Positions 4,993-16,133 of a DNA stretch of 64,000 bases are shown piece after piece; the stretch's first letter is position 1; each line of letters begins with the position of its first letter. The DNA comes from Aphanomyces cochlioides. Its lineage: Eukaryota; Oomycota; Saprolegniomycetes; Saprolegniales; Verrucalvaceae. Location: positions 1,674,001 through 1,738,000 of the forward strand of contig JAHQRK010000005.1 of NCBI GenBank assembly GCA_019828595.1, read 5' to 3'. The notes beneath the pieces were generated by a model that was given only the letters and a program-made list of their open reading frames with translations, searched no databases and was not told the origin of the DNA. The position numbers and the translations under genes were made by a program.

Positions 4993-6832
4993 CTACTCTG
5001 GTCCACAAGAATTGCACCATTTGTGTTTGGATTGGCGGGATTTTTCTAAAAATACAGATATGATAAATGTGATTGGTGCGCTGAAAAGCGCAAGATCTGC
5101 TCTTTAATTGGTTGTATTTTGATAGTGCAAATTCGTTCTCTGGCGCGAAAAATGAGCCGCCAAAGTTGTCGACTCACTTGTGCCATGGTCTCTTTTTTTC
5201 GCCAGAGCTTTAGTGCTAAATTTTACGGCTAACCGACAAGTGCAGTGGTTCCTCTTGCTTCTGGACATGTCGTGCTCACCTTGGAATGAGACACAACCAT
5301 CCACTGAGCGCGTAAGCCTGGCAAGAAACCTCTCGCCAGTGGAGAGACGCCAAGCCTACGAAATGCTCTTGAGAGCAACGGTGAGCAACAAGCTGCCGTA
5401 CGGAACCATAAAGGAAGTTGCCCATCGTATGCAATGCCACCGCACAACAATATATCGCCTGTGGACGCGTGCGCAGCACTCATTCAGTCGGGGTGATCCA
5501 GAGATCGACGTTCTCGCCAAAATGCACGGTATGACCTCTTAAAATCAATATTTATACCAAAATTATTCATTGCCAAAGATATTAATTCTCACAAGTACGA
5601 TATTTTAGGTAATTGAGGCAAGCAAAGACGACGCTCACCAGAAGCCATTGAAGCAGCAATCAAGTCTGTTGATCACGAAGACAGACAAAACCTGCGCTCT
5701 CTGTCCGCCCAAAGCGGCGTTCCGAAAACAACAATCCTGCGACACATGAAGGAATCCAAAAAGCTCAAGGCACGCTCGAGTTATGTCAAGCCCATGCTAA
5801 CCGCGACGAACAAGATTCAACGCCTCCAATTTGCATTGAAGTTTCTTCGACCTTCGCCGAAGGGAACCATTTCTTTGACAACATGTACGATCGCGTACAT
5901 CTCGACGAGAAATGGTTCTTCTTGACAAAGGTCAAGAAAACTTTTTATGTGTATGACGATGAAGAGCTGGCTTTGCGCGCTACAAAGTCCAAAGGGTTCA
6001 TCACGAAAGTGATGTTTCTTGCGGCCGTCGCGCGTCCACGTCACGACCCACACACCAAGCGCTTGTTCGATGGGAAGCTGGGCATTTGGCCCTTCGTACA
6101 ACGTTTGCCAGCGGCCCGGAACAGCAAAAATCGGCCTCGAGGAACAATGATTACGACCACCGTCAATGTGGATTCTGCGGCATATGTTGACTCTGTTGTC
6201 AAGAATGTCCTGCCAGCCATCAAGACCAAGTTCCCACGAGGTTGTCTCCAACGTGGCGTGCTATTACAGCACGACAACGCGAGCCCCCACAAGCGTTTGA
6301 CAACTGCATTTTTGCGTGCTAATGGGTTTGATTTCGCCGAGATTGAAACTCAGCCACCAAACAGCCCAGATTTCAATGTGTTAGATTTAGGCTTTTTAAC
6401 GCTATTCAATGTCTGCAGCATCAAAAGAGAACTCGGTCAATTGACGAGTTAATTGATGCTGTACAAGAAGCTTTCTTTGAGTTGCCAGTGATTACACTGG
6501 CTAAAACCTTTATAACCTTGCAAAAGGTTATGGAGTGTTCAATGGAAGTCGGTGGTGGCAATAACTACAAGCTGCCACACATGAAAAATGATGCTGTGAT
6601 CCATGACCTCTCAACTTATAATGTTGATTGTAGTCCAGCCATCTACAGGAATGCTATCGACCACCTGAATTCCCTAGATCAAGTTGATGTAATATAAATG
6701 TCAATTTAAATTTTATTTTCCCGGGTCGATATTCAGTTTTGAGGTTGCATACAAAACTCCATATAAATATTGACATGTTCATATACATTAATCAAGTATA
6801 AATAATGTTGCAATTCTTGTGGACCAGAGTAG
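4993..6832 (+). mobile_element. Mariner-type DNA transposon with TA duplication
   Basis: The left end CTACTCTGGTCCACAAGAAT (4993-5012) is exactly inverted at 6813-6832. The match continues inward for a few more bases (TTGCA) and then decays. Both ends are flanked by TA (4991-4992 and 6833-6834), the invariant target of Tc1/mariner elements. The 1,840-bp element carries one transposase gene in the plus direction. It is inserted just downstream of the MITE at 4701-4985. Confidence 0.9.
5267..6697 (+). pseudogene. Mariner-type DDD/E transposase, intron-split and decayed
   Basis: The N-terminal part (ATG 5267) has a helix-turn-helix (EVAHRMQCHRTTIYRLWTRA). A GT...AG intron at 5529-5608 (80 bp) restores the reading into QRRRSPEAIEAAIKSV and a second HTH (SAQSGVPKTTILRHMK). 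The catalytic domain follows: VHLDEKWF (first Asp, near 5900), LLQHDNASPHK (second Asp, near 6270), QPPNSPDFNVLDLGF (third acidic position, near 6350-6390) and the tail VGGGNNYKLPHM (near 6550-6590). Damage: an in-frame TGA just after the intron (5614-5616), a frameshift between about 5820 and 5883, and another near 6390-6400. All catalytic motifs survive, so decay is recent. A GTG at 5180 would extend the frame, but ATG 5267 fits the family better. Confidence 0.88.
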
Positions 6833-6834
6833 TA

Positions 6835-7287
6835 TTAGTTGCGACTCTGCTCTGTTTTGACTACTGTTCTGGAACAATAGTCCTGCGTCCCTCTGCGCAG
6901 ATTACTTATGCCCATCCTATCAAACAACTCACGTACATCCTCCCATTGTGCAGATTGGTCGAACCAACGAGTGGTCCCAGTCCAGGATGTGCCTCTACGG
7001 CAGTAGGATAGTCAGTTTGGAATTAGCCATGAAGTAATCAAATCGTGTCAAACTCACCTCCCGCACAGTGCTCCCGGAAGTCGGAACAACTACTTAGAAT
7101 CATCTAGAGCGTGTTCCATTTTTGCATGATTTTTATGATTCTGAACCGAAAAGTGGATAATCGCGTTTTTATGCACAAATATCATGGGGCAATCGACCAT
7201 TCCCTCCATTTTTGCATGATTTTTATGATTCTGAACCGAAAAGTGGATAATCGAACACGAGAGGATTCTGATTGTTGATTCCCAATA
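6835..7287. other. Gene-free spacer with a 49-bp direct repeat
   Basis: No supported gene. Positions 7115-7163 and 7205-7253 are identical 49-bp direct repeats (start TCCATTTTTGCATGATTTTT), 41 bp apart, just outside the left end of the MULE. The repeat contains TTTTTATGATTCTGAACCG and has no coding value. Confidence 0.7.
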
Positions 7288-7606
7288 CGTAATTCTGATT
7301 GGATATAATACTTGACCAATCAAAAGCTAATATAATGTAAATAGTGTAAGTTGATGCCTTGACCTCCTTGTCAATCTCACGGCATCAACGCCGACAAAAG
7401 CGCCGACAACCAGCGGTCATTCCAACGCTCATATTAGCGTTGCTTTAACCGCTATATACAGCGCTATAGGCAGCGCTCAAATGAGCGCTGCTACCAGCGT
7501 CGAAATAAGCGCAAACGTTAGCGCTACAAGTAGCGCTTCACACAACGTAGAAAGTAGCGCTAACATTTGCGCAGAAAGTAGCGCAGAAAGCAGCGGTTCA
7601 TGGTCT
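7288..7606 (+). repeat. Left terminal inverted repeat with 12-bp CpG-phased array
   Basis: The outer ~125 bp are ordinary unique sequence. From 7414 to 7595 a CpG occurs at every twelfth base without exception (7414, 7426, 7438 and so on to 7594; sixteen sites), usually as AGCGCT, AACGCT, AGCGTT or ACCGCT, with six to eight variable bases between cores. Two earlier CpGs (7389, 7401) are one base out of phase. The spacer bases are not repeated, so this is not a simple tandem repeat. Confidence 0.95.
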
Positions 7607-7843: not shown

Positions 7844-8524
7844 ATGACCGGCGAAAGGAACGTCATGAAGAAACCACAAGCCGTGCGATGCAATGTGATG
7901 CAGTGTGAGGCCCTTCTCACTGTGGGGCACTATCCAACCCACTATCGTGCCTTTCACAGTGAGCAGGGACCTTGGAAGAAATCGATGCATGAAGATGGTC
8001 TAGTTTACTCCGTTCTTGACGGTAAAGTTGACAAACATATCGTTGCCTCATTCAGCTGCGTAGAAGACGATCTTGTTCACTTTGAGTCAATTACAGACTC
8101 GGAAAGAAAATTGTACAACTTGGAGAAGCGTTTGTCATTTAAACAACGCTCGAAAAGGTGAACGGATTCTCTTTCCGAGTCTCATCAAGACAGTAGTGAG
8201 ATCCATGAGCTGCGCGAGCTTGTTCATGAGCTTACCTAGCGTATGGACGCTGTCGAAACCAGGTTAACATCAATATTGACCTCGTATTTTAGTCAAGATG
8301 TACTACACGACGTGAGCCTTAGCCCCTTCGAAGAATCCCAACATGCCATGAGCCGAAAAATTGTACTAAGCGAACAAGTGGAAAGCACCATTACCGAAAA
8401 CGATGCAAATGTCGCCCGCACTATAGGCAACCCACGTTCCAAGCACAAAGCCACCCTAGCTTCAATCGTCTCGGCTCCTCCAAAACCACAAAAGAAGCGA
8501 GGTAGAAAAAGGAGTTTATTCTAA
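7844..8524 (+). pseudogene. Zinc-finger/coiled-coil/basic-tail protein, two in-frame stops
   Basis: One reading frame of 227 codons runs from the ATG at 7844 to the stop at 8522-8524, broken only by TGA at 8159-8161 and TAG at 8237-8239. Both stops are explicable as C-to-T changes (from CGA and CAG). Residues ~13-38 form a C2H2-like finger (C-x4-C-x11-H-x4-H, CNVMQCEALLTVGHYPTHYR). A charged heptad-rich stretch (SERKLYNLEKRL, then HELRELVHELT, then RMDAVETRLTSIL) predicts a coiled coil. The C-terminus PKPQKKRGRKRSLF resembles an AT-hook/NLS. It lies inside the MULE and is divergent to the transposase, so an accessory DNA-binding role is plausible. I recognise no named family. A spliced form using GT 8158/AG 8239 would go out of frame. 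Confidence 0.6.
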
Positions 8525-8922
8525 GCCAAAAATATTTTTTTCATTTTTCCAATGAATGCACATTATTTATTTGAGACTTGAAATTAAGAGTAGTATTAAG
8601 CTAAATTTCTGCAGTAGTTGAGACTTTAAATTCAGGGTTGGATTAAGCTAAATTTCTGCCGTCTCATTCGTTCGAAGACTCTTATTGAAGTCTCTATTCA
8701 TTCTTGGCCTTTTTCGTCGTCTGTCGATCTTCTCCGCATTTAACATAAAGTTCTCAACTGGTTGGAGTAGGTGTTTTATCTCCTTGAGGATGTCGCTGTT
8801 AGTGTTTTGTTGTGCACAAAAATGTTTCACTTTTGAGCAGGTATTGAGAATATGAGATGATAAATCTGCAACAGTTCTCAAATGCCTGCAATCTTGATGC
8901 TCGTCATAAGGAAAGGATCCAT

Positions 8923-9116
8923 CGTCAGGACCATCGGTGATCTCAGCGGTGATATCATCGGTGATCTCACCGTTGGATTCAACTGTTTTATGAGTGCTTT
9001 TGCCACCGTTGGTATCAGCGCTGATCTCACCGCCTAAACCACCGTTAGTATCACAGGTGATACCGCCGCCTGAATCACCGGAACGATAAGCGGGGGTACC
9101 AACGCTAGAAATGCCG
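8923..9116. repeat. Internal 12-bp CpG-phased array 1
   Basis: Seventeen positions spaced 12 bp from 8923 to 9115; fourteen carry CpG. One of the exceptions is TG (8995), as expected from CpG decay; the others are 8983 and 9055. The unit resembles GATCTCACCGTT with cores ACCGGT, ACCGTT, AGCGCT. Read on the minus strand in the transposase C-terminal frame it gives an acidic four-residue pattern (EITDDITAEITDG). Confidence 0.9.
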
Positions 9117-10043
9117 CTGTCTTCACTAAAAATGACAAGTTTTGTCGTTTCTTCCCGCAGCATGTCCTTCTTTGTTTTTAGAAAAATCCACAAAGGTTGG
9201 CAGTATCTGCGAACCTTGAACGGAGGAGCGAGGAACTATGTGACGTTAGTTAAATTCTGCTTTTCGTATTACCGGGTTTTGTTCCTTTTCTTGGGTAAGA
9301 TGGAAAATATGTACTAAATGTTTGCACAGGAAAAATTCGCTGTACTCAAACGCAGGCCAAGGGCAGCTCGACGGGATCAATGACGATTTATACAAATTTG
9401 CTCTGATATCTCCAACCAATATTTTGACTGCGCATTCTTTCCATACACGGTTGAAATATTTCTCCCAGTAGGCTGGGAATGACGGCGCGACATACTTCCC
9501 GCAAAGTCAAGTTTGTCGGTAAACCACGATTGAACTTGTCCACTCAACAAATATGCTGCGAAATTTAGACGTGGTCGGTAAACTTCCTGGCTATGGAATG
9601 CCAAATGTCAACCATCAATAAAATTACTGGTAAAATCTACCTTAAAAAATCGGTATTTGAGCAGAGAAAAATGTGACTCCGCGAGCATTGTTGTACGAAA
9701 CTCAGACAAAAATTCGGGACTAGAGATGACCTCGCCCACATTGACCATCTTACTGGATTGTACCAGTGATTGTACAAGTACACCCAAACAAAGTCCAAAC
9801 AGTGAGTTCTGTAATAGTTATACATTTCGCCAAGTGACTGTGCATATATGTGAGAGGATATCTAAAGAATGAGTGTTATTGTATATAACGAACGACTAAA
9901 TACCTCAGAGTGTGTCAAAGGGTGGAGTTTAAAATGAGACTTCATTATTGTAAGGATTTTTTCAACATGCTCCTTCCCACCAAATAACGGGGCGAATCTG
10001 GTTTCAAGGATATTGGTGGTGTTATTCACATTGTCTGAATCAA

Positions 10044-10165
10044 CGTTGGTATCAACGTTGGTATCTGCGCTTATATCAGCGCTTTGATCACCGCTTATCT
10101 CACGGATTATTCCACCGCTGGAATCACCGCTATCATCAACGCCATATCCACCGCTTATAAAAACG
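10044..10165. repeat. Internal 12-bp CpG-phased array 2
   Basis: Eleven positions from 10044 to 10164 at 12-bp spacing; ten carry CpG and one is displaced by a single base (10103). Cores include AACGTT, CACCGCT and TGCGCT. The minus-strand frame across it reads as an acidic Gly/Ser/Asp segment (DQSADISADTNVDTNVD). Whether this is exon or intron cannot be settled here. Confidence 0.9.
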
Positions 10166-10986
10166 CTCAAGCTTCTTTCAAACCCAAGTTTGGCACTCGA
10201 AATGTAAGCGTCGTCATCAACATCCAAAGTTGAATCGTTCGCAATCTCAAGTAGACTCCAACGTGGGAAGTCGTCGGAAGCGATGAATATTGGCTGGTGA
10301 AGTGCCAAGTGTTTTTTGTACCTAATATTGTCAGGTAGAAATATAATCACGAAGCATGTTACGTGTTTATCAAAGGAAACGTTGATTGCTTGACAAAGCG
10401 TAGTCGCACTGCACGATCTAAATGCCAGAGACAAAGTTGAATCTTGGCAGAGCTCCACACATGTCGTATTGCACGAAACTGTGCAGCGTCCTTGTCTACA
10501 TGCACAAACTCAGGCTCAAGTTTGAGCTGACTCTTCAGTTGCTTTAGCCAGTCAATTATATAAGCCACACGTAGGTATTTTAAATCTAGTCAAAGATTAT
10601 ATGAATGCTGAAGAGTCTCGTACTGTCTTTTTTATAAACATATAACTGATAGGATATCCTTCCCCTCGAAATGATATAAGTATTGTATACACCTCAAAAT
10701 TGCCATTTGTCATTCGATGTGTCGAGTCAATTACTGCTTCTGGGACAAAACCCAGACACTCTGTACCTTTCATTTCACACATTTTTGTGATTACTTTCTT
10801 CAAAATAATTGTCATGGCTGGCACTCTCCGAACATTAGGAGGCTGCAGTTCCACTGCAGAAACATGCTCCCTATTTTCAAGAAACAACTTCGCTGATTCA
10901 AATGGGTCTTTATGCATCTGGATTTTTGCATGAAGGCTCTACAACACGCATTAAAAATTGAATACAAGGAAAAGACAAAATATTGA

Positions 10987-11155
10987 CGCGTTTTTCACCG
11001 GTGAATCAACGATGGTACAATCGTTGATAGCACCGTTGATAACACCCGTGAATTCAACGTTGAAAGCACCGTTTCAATCAACGTATAAACGAGCATAGAT
11101 ATCACCGTTCCTCTCACCGTTAACAACAACTGTGAATAAAACGGTGAAAGCAACG
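10987..11155. repeat. Internal 12-bp CpG-phased array 3, inside an intron
   Basis: CpGs fall at 11022, 11034, 11058, 11070, 11082, 11106, 11118, 11142 and 11154 on one 12-bp register, with 10987, 10999 and 11010 just ahead and shifted by one base. The cores are AACGTT, ACCGTT, ACCGGT. The array fills most of the 246-bp intron (11184-10939, GTAAGT...TAG) between two transposase exons, so here the pattern cannot be a by-product of protein coding. Confidence 0.88.
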
Positions 11156-12159
11156 TCGAAATTCATCCATTGTCATAAACTTACCCTTCGCCATATATAT
11201 GACACTTGAGCCACTGATGGTACACAGCGCAAATCAAAATCGTCCTTTCTGTCAAGCAAACAATCTCGCAGCTTAGATGGGGTCATGTAGTTTGCGTTTT
11301 CCTCTATAAACTTCAAAATCTCGCCTTCCAACGGCGTAGAAAGTTCACATTCACCAGGGTGCTCGATCTCGTGGTACGAAGATATATGTATCCCTTTGTC
11401 CATTGATGCAATTGACAAAACTCCTTCGTGCAACGGTCATAAGTCTATGAGACCTAACGATATACCTTTGCAATCGCACGTCAATTTCGTTGCAACGTTT
11501 CTCCTTTTGTTGACAAATATTTGTGACGATGTTTCCTTTTAAAATGAAGTTTTCGTGGTTTTGTAATCTTTACGCTGCTTACAGCGGAATGTACTCTGAA
11601 TAATTGTGTAAGGGTATTTCAAATTTGATGCCTTCTTGATATTCCTAAAGCAAACAAATGATAAGGATTCGTCCTTCTATAATACCAATAGCTGTATCCG
11701 AGATTGTCAAGTAATAAACCTAAAATTTCTTTGACGCAAGCATCATGCATCACAAAGTTGGTCTGACATTTTGTCTGGATAAAAACATGAACACGTTGGT
11801 CACTGTGTAAAAAGATAGAGCAAATGTCGTTCTCAAAATCGTTCATCGAAGTGAAATTGTATACAACGTGCCTGACATTGGCCTCGTCATTGTAAGACAT
11901 TGGTTTGTCTGTCGTGTCTCTGGAGCTGTATTTGCACCTACATACGAGACAAGTCCTGAAAGAAATATTTCTTGAGGCATCTACAAAGCATTCCCAAAGG
12001 TGGTTCTTCTTGCATCTTGCACATTTCAACCTATGCAGACTGCTCTCTTCTCCATCAACAATCATGCCAATTGCAAAATGACGAAAGTTTGAAGTCAGTA
12101 TCCCCGTACTATGATTGGCTACGTTACTTCAAGTTACAGTAGTCAGATTCTTAGAGCTT

Positions 12160-12275
12160 TCAGCGCTGCTTTCTGCGCAAACGTTAGCGCTACTTGAAGC
12201 GCTACTTTCTACGTTGTGTGAAGCGCTAACGTTTGCGCTTATTTCGACGCTGGTAGCAGCGCTGGTTTGAGCGCT
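12160..12275 (-). repeat. Right terminal inverted repeat, inner part, with phased array
   Basis: The inverted counterpart of the left arm. CpGs are at 12164, 12176 and every 12 bp to 12272, ten out of ten, mostly AGCGCT. The arm is interrupted after 12275 by the Copia element and resumes at 14967 with its register intact (14980, 14992 as CA, 15004, 15016, 15028). The order of a few units differs from the left arm, suggesting unit shuffling. Confidence 0.92.
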
Positions 12276-12542
12276 TGTTGAATAGCAGGAATGCAGTAGA
12301 GAACAGAGTTGAAGGGCTCAGTTCAGGGCCAATTCGAGAGTGAGTGCACTAAGCATAACACAGTCAAACCCATCACATCCTAGCCAGGAATATAAAATAT
12401 ACACAACTGTACTGTCAACCAATGTACTGTCCATCGTAGTCAATCACATGACACTGCTCTATAGTTCTCCTAGTTGTAGTGAACTTTCCTCGTGTTCAAC
12501 CACTTTGATAGACTTAGACTCATTTGATTCTTATATCTAACA
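12276..12542 (-). repeat. Copia 3' LTR
   Basis: Left-hand LTR, 267 bp, TG...CA ended. It contains a TATAAA-like ATATAAAATATA stretch near 12390-12401 on the plus strand. Nearly identical to the other LTR, which implies a recent insertion. Confidence 0.95.
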
Positions 12543-12609
12543 CTCCCACTCAGTGTTATGTGATTTTCTTGATGTCTTTATGCGAGGACAAGTTGTGTAC
12601 TCCTATCTT

Positions 12610-14688
12610 TTATCTCAAGAACTCATACTGCTTTACAGGCAGTGGCTTAGTCAGTAAGTCAGCAAGCATGTTATGACTATTACAAAACTCAATGTTATTC
12701 TTTTCTTTTCAACAAGATCTCTCGTAAATAGATATCTTGTTTCGATATGCTTTGTAGCTTTGTGATTTCCAGGATTCTGGACCACACTTATAGCTGATTT
12801 ACTATCGCACCATAACTTAACAGGATTCTTAAGCTTATATCCCATTTCTGAAAGTAAATGCCATAGCCACTCGCTTTCCTTTGCTCCTTCACTTAAAGCA
12901 ATCAACTCTGATTCTGCTGTTGACAATGCAACACAGTTTTGTTTGCAACTACTCCATGAAATGCAAGTTCCTGCTAGTAGTACTAAATATACAGAGATAC
13001 TAGTTCGATCTTTTTCTCGATTCGCGAAGCTCGCGTCAGAATAGACTTCGTACTGTAGATCTCCTTTGTTTCCATCTAAAAGAAGTCCGTATCTAACGTC
13101 CCTTTCAAGTATCTCAGTACTCTGAGGGCCGCTTCCCAATGTGACTTATTATAACAGGAATGAAATCTACTTAATTCTCTCACTGCATTTGCAATATCAG
13201 GTCTAGTCCCTCTTACTAGATACTGTAATGACCCAACAAGTCCTCTGTAATCATATGGTTGTGCTGCAATTTCTTTAGCACTCATTTGAGTTTCAGGTCT
13301 CAATTCAACTCCTACTATTTGTGGAGTCGGGCTACTATACAATGTGCATCTAATAGAGCACATCGAATCTTGCTGAATTTCGTTTGAAAATCTCTTTCTG
13401 CACCACCATTTTCCTCTTTGTAGTAAGGATTAGACTTTTGATAACGAATCCCTTGACTTTTACAATAGGCTTGTAGCGCTTTATTGTTAAACTCTGTTCC
13501 TCCTCTGATCTCATTTCGATCACCTCAGTTTTGCACTCTCTTTCCATTTGAGTGAGAATCTCCTTTATATTCTTTGTCACCTCTGTTTTCTCCTCAAAAA
13601 CGAATGACCATCGATATGGTCAATCAAAATGCATCCATACTTTATATTAGCACGTGTTCCATAAAGTCCATTTTGTTTTACTGGACAACAGGTGTCCATG
13701 TGAACTGTGTGTAAATTTCCTTTAATTCGATTGGTCAGTTTGTTCCGAAAGGACATTCTTCGATCCTTATAGTTGCACATGTGTAACAGAACGAAACGTT
13801 CTTCAAACTTTCCTTACTAATTTTCGGAACCCCAGTGACGACACCACAACATAGCATCGTAATCACCGAATCTTTGTTTACATGTTCAAGTCGGATATGC
13901 CACTCTTTGACGAGACGTTCAGCTTCATGATTAGTTAGTTCTCTCAAAATCGGTGCTGTCTTTACACTATTTCAGTGTACTTGTCTCTCGCTCAAAGTAT
14001 GATGCTTAATATAATATGATCCATTGGCAACCACAGCAACGAACTGTAGCATATCATGCATAAAGACATATTTATATTTACCACACATACTTGGTATGAT
14101 ATGATTTCCTTGTTCCTTTAGCACCTTCTCACTTAGTATATTTGACTTTGCTCCTGGTACAAGTATCACAGATTCAAATCTATATGGCACAATTCCTTCA
14201 ATTGATCTAAACCACAATTGAATTGTTCCCACATGTGAACTCGTCAATTCAGTACCCTCTCCGAATCTAAAGACAAGATTGTTCTCATTAGTTTTTGAAC
14301 TAAAATAATCTGTCGTTCCCGTCAGATGACGACCACATCCACTATCCAGCGCCCAATCACAAGATGTGATTTCACGATCACACAACAAGGACGGGAAGTT
14401 CTTTTGAACTCTAGCGTCCACATCACTTATGACTTCCTTCGCTTTAATAGAAAGCTCCATCAATTTCTGGTTAATCAAACCAGAATCAACCTGATTTACA
14501 GCAACAGAAGTTGCATCACTCATCACAGAACTCTCTGTTAGATTTCTCTCTTTTGGAGTTGACAATAAACTCATTTCCTCCAAGTGACCCATAAACTTTT
14601 GTGACCACACTCTTAAGTTGTCCATCTCATTTGAGATCAATGAGGACAGATTCTTAATTCCTCCAGTGGAAGCTCCTTCAGTAGACAT
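12610..14688 (-). pseudogene. Copia gag-pol remnant lacking most of the reverse transcriptase
   Basis: From ATG 14688: a shortened Gag (NLRVWSQKFMGHLEEMSLL), then the protease WALDSGCGRHLTG (Asp in DSG, near 14346). Next comes the HHCC pre-integrase module (WHIRLEHVNKDSV ... CYTCAT, 13900-13770), the start of the integrase core (HTVHMDTCCPV, near 13700) and, in another frame, a stretch before NPYYKEENGGAE (near 13420). Integrase then joins directly to the connection/RNase H part (YRGLVGSLQYLVRGTRPDIA; YSDASFANREKDRTS; ALSTAESELIALSEGAKE; LWCDSKSAI), so the integrase C-terminus and nearly all RT, including the YVDD region, are deleted near 13355. Frameshifts occur near 13960, 13750, 13500, 13100 and 12700. 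The true C-terminus ADLLTKPLPVKQYEFLR is visible before the TAA at 12610-12612. Non-autonomous. Confidence 0.9.
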
Positions 14689-14699
14689 ACGACTTGAAA

Positions 14700-14966
14700 T
14701 GTTGAATAGCAGGAATGCAGTAGAGAACAGAGTTGAAGGGCTCAGTTCAGGGCCAATTCGAGAGTGAGTGCACTAAGCATAACACAGTCAAACCCATCAC
14801 ATCCTAGCCAGGAATATAAAATATACACAACTGTACTGTCAACCAATGTACTGTCCATCGTAGTCAATCACATGACACTGCTCTATAGTTCTCCTAGTTG
14901 TAGTGAACTTTCCTCGTGTTCAACCACTTTGATAGACTTAAACTCATTTGATTCTTATATCTAACA
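14700..14966 (-). repeat. Copia 5' LTR
   Basis: Right-hand LTR, 267 bp, the promoter-bearing copy for the minus-strand element. It is followed by the GCGCT target duplication at 14967-14971. Confidence 0.95.
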
Positions 14967-15155
14967 GCGCTGCATATAGCGCTGTATATAGCAGTTAAAG
15001 CAACGCTAATATGAGCGTTGGAATGACCGCTGGTTGTCGGCGCTTTTGTCGGCGTTGATGCCGTGAGATTGACAAGGAGGTCAAGGCTTCAACTTACACT
15101 ATTTACATTATATTAGCTTTTGATTGGTCAAGTATTATATCCAATCAGAATTACG
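14967..15155 (-). repeat. Right terminal inverted repeat, outer part
   Basis: Continues the MULE right arm beyond the Copia. The phased CpG array extends to 15028, followed by the unique outer ~100 bp that mirror 7288-7413 (for example TTGACAAGGAGGTCAAGG against CCTTGACCTCCTTGTCAA), ending at 15155. A few differences separate the arms (for example GAAGCC against GATGCC). Confidence 0.92.
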
Positions 15156-16133
15156 AATTGGCTATTCTGAAGGGTTAGGTCGTCGCTGGAGTGGTCAATT
15201 AATGGGCTCTGGAATCCAGGTAGATTGTTGGAGTGTTGATAAATAATGTTGGTAATTAGAGTTTATCAAACATGATAACGGTGACGAAGACGCCTTGCCA
15301 CGACGTCAACGCACCACTCGTCCGAACAGCACACTTTTTGTCCTGATGTCTGGTAACATTACATCGAGCTGATGGAAGCTCAAAGTGGAAACAGAACGGC
15401 TTTCGAACGCCAAACACACTATACAGTCCTCTCAAAGTGAATCTTTTGAACTCATTAATTTTATAAATATATAAAATATAAGGATTCGTGACATGAGTTA
15501 GATTGCGCGTGGCCAAGTTGTGTTCGATTGAACTGATTTTGATGGAGCTTCGCAATCCAGTAAAATCAATTTCAACGAAAGTCAGATCAGGAAATACAAA
15601 CATTCCGAATAAAAAGTCAAGAAATTATCGAACGCGCCCGAAATTATTGATTAATTTATGAGCGCATAAAGTGAGCCAACTGGCTGCTTTGAGAGCTGAA
15701 ATCAGCCCAATAGTCGTCTCGAATTGGATGCCCAAACTTTGGCATGAAGCATAACCTGAGACAAATTATTTCAATGTGGTTTTTTCGTAACATGTTGCGC
15801 CCAAGAAGACCACGAGATTGTGGATAATTCCTCAAGGATCATTGACCATCGTTCTTTCGGTAAAGGACCAGTAATCACCCTCCAAGCAACTCTCCAAGAT
15901 ACGGGGAAAATAGCCTGATATTTTTTCTATGTATTTAGCCATGGATATAACAATGATCGTGCTGTTTGATGACAATTAGACAAAGAGCGTGAGTGAAATG
16001 AATTCATGGTATTGTCTTTTCAGGCAAAATTTTGACTTACGTGGCGATTGGCTAAATTGATCGATCTATTCAATTACCTTGGAAATTGTATGGCATAAAA
16101 TTTTAAATATATGTCACCTTGAGCACTCTCTGC
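15156..16133. other. Region without recognisable gene
   Basis: AT-rich. One minus-strand frame of 115 codons (15603-15256) begins with ATG and ends in an aromatic-rich sequence, but shows no motif I recognise. No repeats or RNA structure are evident. Confidence 0.4.

Follow-up and report, generated by a model that had tools for sequence, protein, structure and literature searches.

Evidence for DNA-level selection on 12-bp-phased dyad arrays in a MULE-like transposon lineage of Aphanomyces cochlioides

A decayed transposon in the oomycete Aphanomyces cochlioides raises the question of why a CpG dinucleotide should recur at every twelfth base of its terminal inverted repeats (TIRs), and whether such a spacing is a maintained signal or the residue of a tandem repeat. 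The element lies near the start of the window, that is, the whole stretch of 64,000 nucleotides that was analysed (assembly GCA_019828595.1, contig JAHQRK010000005.1, positions 1,674,001 to 1,738,000 of the forward strand), and coordinates given without a locus name are those of the window.

The outer part of the left TIR, delimited by the inverted repeat and by alignment, occupies positions 7282-7411 (+ strand) and lacks about 50 of the outermost bases when compared with the copy L009. It is followed by the left array of 16 units of 12 bp (7412-7603, +), a second gene that is considered below, and a transposase gene that has decayed into several reading-frame pieces (8648-12128, - strand). 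The inner ten units of the right array lie at 12162-12275 (-), and a core of this array has been split by a Copia retrotransposon (12276-14966, -; LTRs at 12276-12542 and 14700-14966) flanked by a 5-bp target duplication, GCGCT (12271-12275 and 14967-14971). The 267-bp LTRs of the Copia are identical, and its internal sequence is just about 2.2 kb long. The outer array units and outer end of the right TIR, which ends in ATTAATGGGCTCT, complete the element (14967-15210, -); the inverted repeat pair 7282-7477 and 14966-15161 is 98% alike. An exact 49-bp direct repeat (7115-7163 and 7205-7253) lies just outside the truncated left TIR, and a large part of the remaining window (18647-63906) is GC-richer and holds repeated copies of non-LTR retrotransposons, several in tandem and with truncated and inverted pieces, whose ORFs of up to about 1350 amino acids appear by eye to be endonuclease/reverse-transcriptase-like.

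The TIRs of the element begin with AGAGCCCATTAATT, and in related copies they measure 263-373 bp with 97-100% identity (L015, L016 and L018) and 318 bp with 98% identity (L022). Target site duplications (TSDs), which span 8-11 bp in MULEs, match at nine of nine bases in L016 (CAATGGCAT) and L022 (GCCGGAGAC), and at eight of nine in L018 and, by eye, L015; none can be read for the window copy because its left end is truncated. Pfam searches of the transposase pieces in the window gave nothing above noise, and those of homologues gave weak matches below the cut-off, to the ZSWIM RNaseH-like domain (E 0.0025, L024) and to SWIM (E 0.0069, L015); the N-terminal piece of L015 also matched PHD_ash2p_like at E 0.034 and 14.5 bits, where the cut-off is 28. 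On account of the long TIRs, the 9-bp TSDs and the sub-cut-off SWIM and ZSWIM RNaseH-like matches, we call the element MULE-like.

Direct counting bears out the periodicity reported in a preliminary description of this DNA. The C of a CpG falls at 7414 + 12n at all 16 positions of the left arm, at 12164 + 12n at ten of ten positions of the right arm and, beyond the Copia, at 14980, 15004, 15016 and 15028, with CA at 14992. Position 14968 is also a CpG, and is not counted as a separate unit because it lies within the Copia target duplication, in its second copy. Simulation of the element under a first-order Markov model gave 12-bp CpG runs of four at most in 500 sequences, against the 16 observed, and among periods 3-39 runs longer than four occur in the window solely at 12, 24 and 36. 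The preliminary description omitted three further arrays of the same type inside the element, all on the - strand and with approximate limits: array 1 (11010-11157), array 2 in a coding part (10044-10167) and array 3 in the C-terminal coding part (8923-9118). Array 1 is assigned to an intron by comparison with L015, where the corresponding array sits, by eye, between GTAAGT and TTTTTTAAATGTGTCTTGTAG and is therefore intronic.

The pattern had been characterized as a phase-locked dinucleotide code with freely varying spacers, distinct from an ordinary tandem repeat, and this view needs to be revised. The repeat unit is more than a bare CpG, being a degenerate 12-mer with the pooled consensus ANCGNT-GATATC, in which both hexamers are self-complementary and the GATATC half is the weaker. 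The spacers do vary, but A1 and T6 of ANCGNT are conserved as well and the other half retains its weak consensus; likewise, the array is a tandem repeat, with unit-specific spacers that copies of one family share by descent, although the constraint upon it is indeed position-specific. The CG is retained in 191 of 238 distinct units. Twelve of the 26 tabulated arrays, one to three of each kind, were compared, and in all of them positions 1 and 6 show greater likeness than either positions 2 and 5 or positions 7-12 (column-shuffle p 5e-5, CpG columns excluded). Pairs of ANCGNT at a lag of 12 number 218 in 15 sources, as against 0-11 at other lags between 3 and 60, multiples of 12 excepted, and in 140 kb outside the elements there are six such pairs against a mean of 1.5 at other lags, a small excess. 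A profile of the unit (R1) matched 182 times across 16 sources totalling 200 kb, all by eye at arrays of these elements, of which the 12 training stretches match by construction, and none in the array-less loci L023 and L024. In L023 a DDE_3 ORF adjoins the MULE kin.

Arrays are present at all 12 loci of the T15 family (L009-L020), which is partly a matter of choice, since the query that found these loci itself contained an array. A query with the outer TIR and no array gave 24 matches, 22 of them at loci seen to carry arrays; the other two (C13:546190 and C23:475855) are nearer to MITE ends and lie outside the loci fetched. Three of the T15 copies (L016, L017 and L018, contig C9) are near-identical, and the shared flanks of L016 and L018, in opposite orientation, suggest a segmental duplication or inversion. 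The arrays recur in a sister family, T22 (L021, L022, L025, L026 and part of L010; all with arrays), whose transposase core is 67% identical and whose TIR aligns over the outer 89 bp only. Here they occupy the TIR, a site beside the C-terminal piece, and a site between the two transposase pieces that flank array 1. A PIF/Harbinger-type transposase ORF (Pfam Plant_tran) lies within the T22 element region of L021 (4038-5480).

The scenario that competes best with selection is that the arrays are neutral, decaying 12-bp minisatellites, which slippage and conversion have multiplied inside the element, and that the phase is a relic of this history. Units have been gained or lost in multiples of 12 in the arms of L011 and L014, between L021 and L022, and in the length of array 2 between L015 and L020, as this scenario would have it, and among five T22 copies core and spacer change alike (17 of 52 and 26 of 78 columns, with the CpG columns changing more, 14 of 26), some rows of that alignment being hard to place past unit 7. 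Uniform decay, however, should leave all 12 positions equally diverged, whereas between lineages the core is about eight-fold less diverged than the spacer: the window arm differs from L012 at 2 of 52 core sites and 26 of 78 spacer sites (Fisher p 2.6e-5), at 4 of 26 sites of positions 2 and 5, at 20 of 107 outer sites and at none of 26 CpG bases. This is the comparison that the preliminary description had proposed, and it upholds the claim that a phase-locked core is kept more than its spacers. Core divergence is below spacer divergence at p <0.02 in nine of 11 arm pairs, which share lineages and hence are not independent; the two recent pairs, L012-L015 and L013-L015, show no difference between core and spacer. 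Fitch reconstruction on ten T15-type arms (first 13 of 16 units, columns with at least seven sequences, the badly aligned last three units excluded) gave 21 changes in 52 core columns against 73 in 78 spacer columns; the 26 columns at positions 2 and 5 took 13 changes, and the 130 columns of the outer TIR took 67. Relative to the spacer, the p value is 5e-5 for the core, 0.0007 for the CpG alone and 0.002 for positions 1 and 6. No significantly lower rate of change in the core emerges against the outer TIR (p 0.18) or against positions 2 and 5 (p 0.33). The minisatellite scenario is further at odds with the conservation of the same positions in all 12 arrays compared, and with other array indels that are not multiples of 12 (8 bases in L019, 21 in L016 and 1 in L010). 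We consider it possible but unlikely, and for the T15 lineage there is good support for arrays of dyad sites, in a MULE-like clade, that are under selection at the level of DNA.

If the sites are selected, the transposase itself might bind them as subterminal sites, in the manner of CACTA or hAT elements. In each arm the outer TIR does lead into an array, and array-bearing loci account for 22 of the 24 outer-TIR matches, but arrays also occur 1-4 kb inside the element, within an intron and within coding sequence. Moreover, MITEs with related outer ends are common, and none of the eight examined carries an array, which would make the arrays unnecessary for end recognition unless the MITEs use another transposase; their ends differ from T15 ends, and they may indeed belong to another transposase. 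These MITEs (L027-L034 and further places) are about 0.5 kb long, with one arm 96-100% alike at 17 places. Taken as sites for the transposase, the arrays would be rather doubtful candidates.

The preliminary description also raised a chromatin or methylation mark, and a host CpG-methylation or chromatin mark would fit the CpG that each left-arm unit contains. A six-frame search for the C5-DNA-methylase domain (PF00145), which could miss a gene that is very divergent or finely split, found no match in the Aphanomyces cochlioides genome, and the control search matched ten of 14 genomes; such a mark is therefore unlikely, and the CpG makes most sense as one part of a sequence that is recognised. 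CpG is not depleted in the window or in L009-L024 (observed/expected 0.89-1.11), A1 and T6 are kept too, and in the part of the literature cited here 5mC was not detected in two Phytophthora species (PMC6211444). The methylation explanation thus appears very improbable.

Arrays 2 and 3 lie within open coding frames, where they encode [NST][GVAD][DE]x repeats and the core is read as the codons ANC GNT. Within these two codons the third positions are the most alike (0.93-1.0 and 0.75-0.77 identical), the first positions less so (0.70-0.88) and the second positions least (0.27-0.44), and the remaining two codons of the unit are looser throughout, save for the first G. A constraint on the protein would give the reverse, and the constraint therefore acts on DNA. 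That a selected tetrapeptide repeat imposed the DNA pattern, as the open frames might suggest, is scarcely credible given this codon pattern and the presence of arrays in the TIRs and an intron.

Recognition by a protein of the element is the reading that we prefer, tentatively, for the dyad arrays: they would be cis-acting sites, bound cooperatively by a putative zinc-finger/coiled-coil dimer of the element's own making, and their role would be to maintain its expression or shield it from silencing, not to mark the ends for excision. The proposed site is the ANCGNT dyad, which recurs at 12-bp spacing in both TIRs, the transposase intron and two coding stretches, with about 1.0-1.5 kb between arrays. 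The candidate protein is the product of the second gene (7844-8524, +), which is convergent with the transposase gene and, according to spliced NCBI models of its relatives P0001 and P0002, has a short intron and would encode a zinc finger (C-x4-C-x11-H-x4-H), a coiled coil and a basic tail; in the window copy the intron is at 8022-8063 by eye, and the frame stops inside exon 2, while the P0001 model retains the zinc ligands. Pfam matches of P0001 and P0002 are at noise level only, and an AlphaFold model of moderate-to-weak quality (pLDDT 72, pTM 0.49) predicts a beta-beta-alpha start and long helices. The gene has at least 22 matches in the genome, 21 of them in examined array-bearing loci and the last (C21:845543) about 1 kb past the examined end of L021, next to the arrays of that locus, and it is retained in L014 and L016-L018, where the C-terminal piece T7 is the sole transposase match. 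Over 52 codons, of which five run into the intron, comparison of the window copy with seven T15 copies gives a dN of 0.18-0.22 and a dS of 0.79-0.92, a ratio of 0.20-0.25; for L009 the ratio is about 0.3-0.36 (dN 0.19-0.23, dS 0.59-0.66), and dS to T22 is saturated. Recent T15 copies of the gene show no sign of purifying selection. The array-less MULE relative L024 has a convergent ORF with C-x4-C and H-x4-H spacing (5171-5704), possibly a distant counterpart of the accessory gene, so that the arrays may be younger than the finger gene, and the gene may not be exclusive to array-bearing elements.

A bolder form of the same proposal, which we hold to be doubtful, is that the putative zinc-finger protein polymerises on 12-bp-phased ANCGNT dyads across the whole element, as a VANC-like self-protection in a non-plant genome where no C5 DNA methylase is detectable, and that a DNA code dictates the tetrapeptide repeats of the transposase. 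If this is true, a regulatory DNA motif would override protein-level constraint within a transposase gene. The arrays, with their phase, core and spacer, also offer a clean substrate for measuring how cis-sites are retained while the rest of a transposon drifts.

Among known systems, CACTA (En/Spm) and hAT (Ac) elements have short repeated sites near their ends that are bound by element proteins, and the TnpA motif of Spm is 12 bp long. Unlike these, the Aphanomyces arrays are phased, have a symmetric core, are spread across the element and are absent from the related-end MITEs examined. Certain Merlin families are DNA transposons with internal tandem repeats, one of them of 12 bp, but with four units in one copy and, in the portion of that report drawn on here, no conserved core described (PMC8101967). 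Rehavkus is a MULE relative with a 9-bp TSD, long TIRs of up to 400 bp and a minisatellite, placed before the 3' TIR, but it has a PHD finger, of which L015 shows a match below the cut-off, arthropod and annelid hosts, and a single minisatellite whose phase and motif are not described in the sections of the source cited (PMC6446971). The nearest parallel to the regulatory or anti-silencing role and binding partner that we infer is found in the VANDAL MULEs of Arabidopsis and their VANC proteins, which also have an extra gene and short motifs in tandem arrays, introns included, with units gained and lost (PMC5735166, PMC10398659, as far as the parts cited go). A VANC protein binds the tandem motif of its element and removes silencing. 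The VANC21 motif, YAGTATTAY, is mainly non-coding, and the relevant passages describe no fixed 12-bp phase (PMC5735166), whereas the Aphanomyces arrays extend into coding DNA in a host without a C5-DNA-methylase match. The likeness, which is one of arrangement, would if true offer a counterpart to plant anti-silencing that can be put to the test, in a lineage which seemingly lacks a C5 DNA methylase domain.
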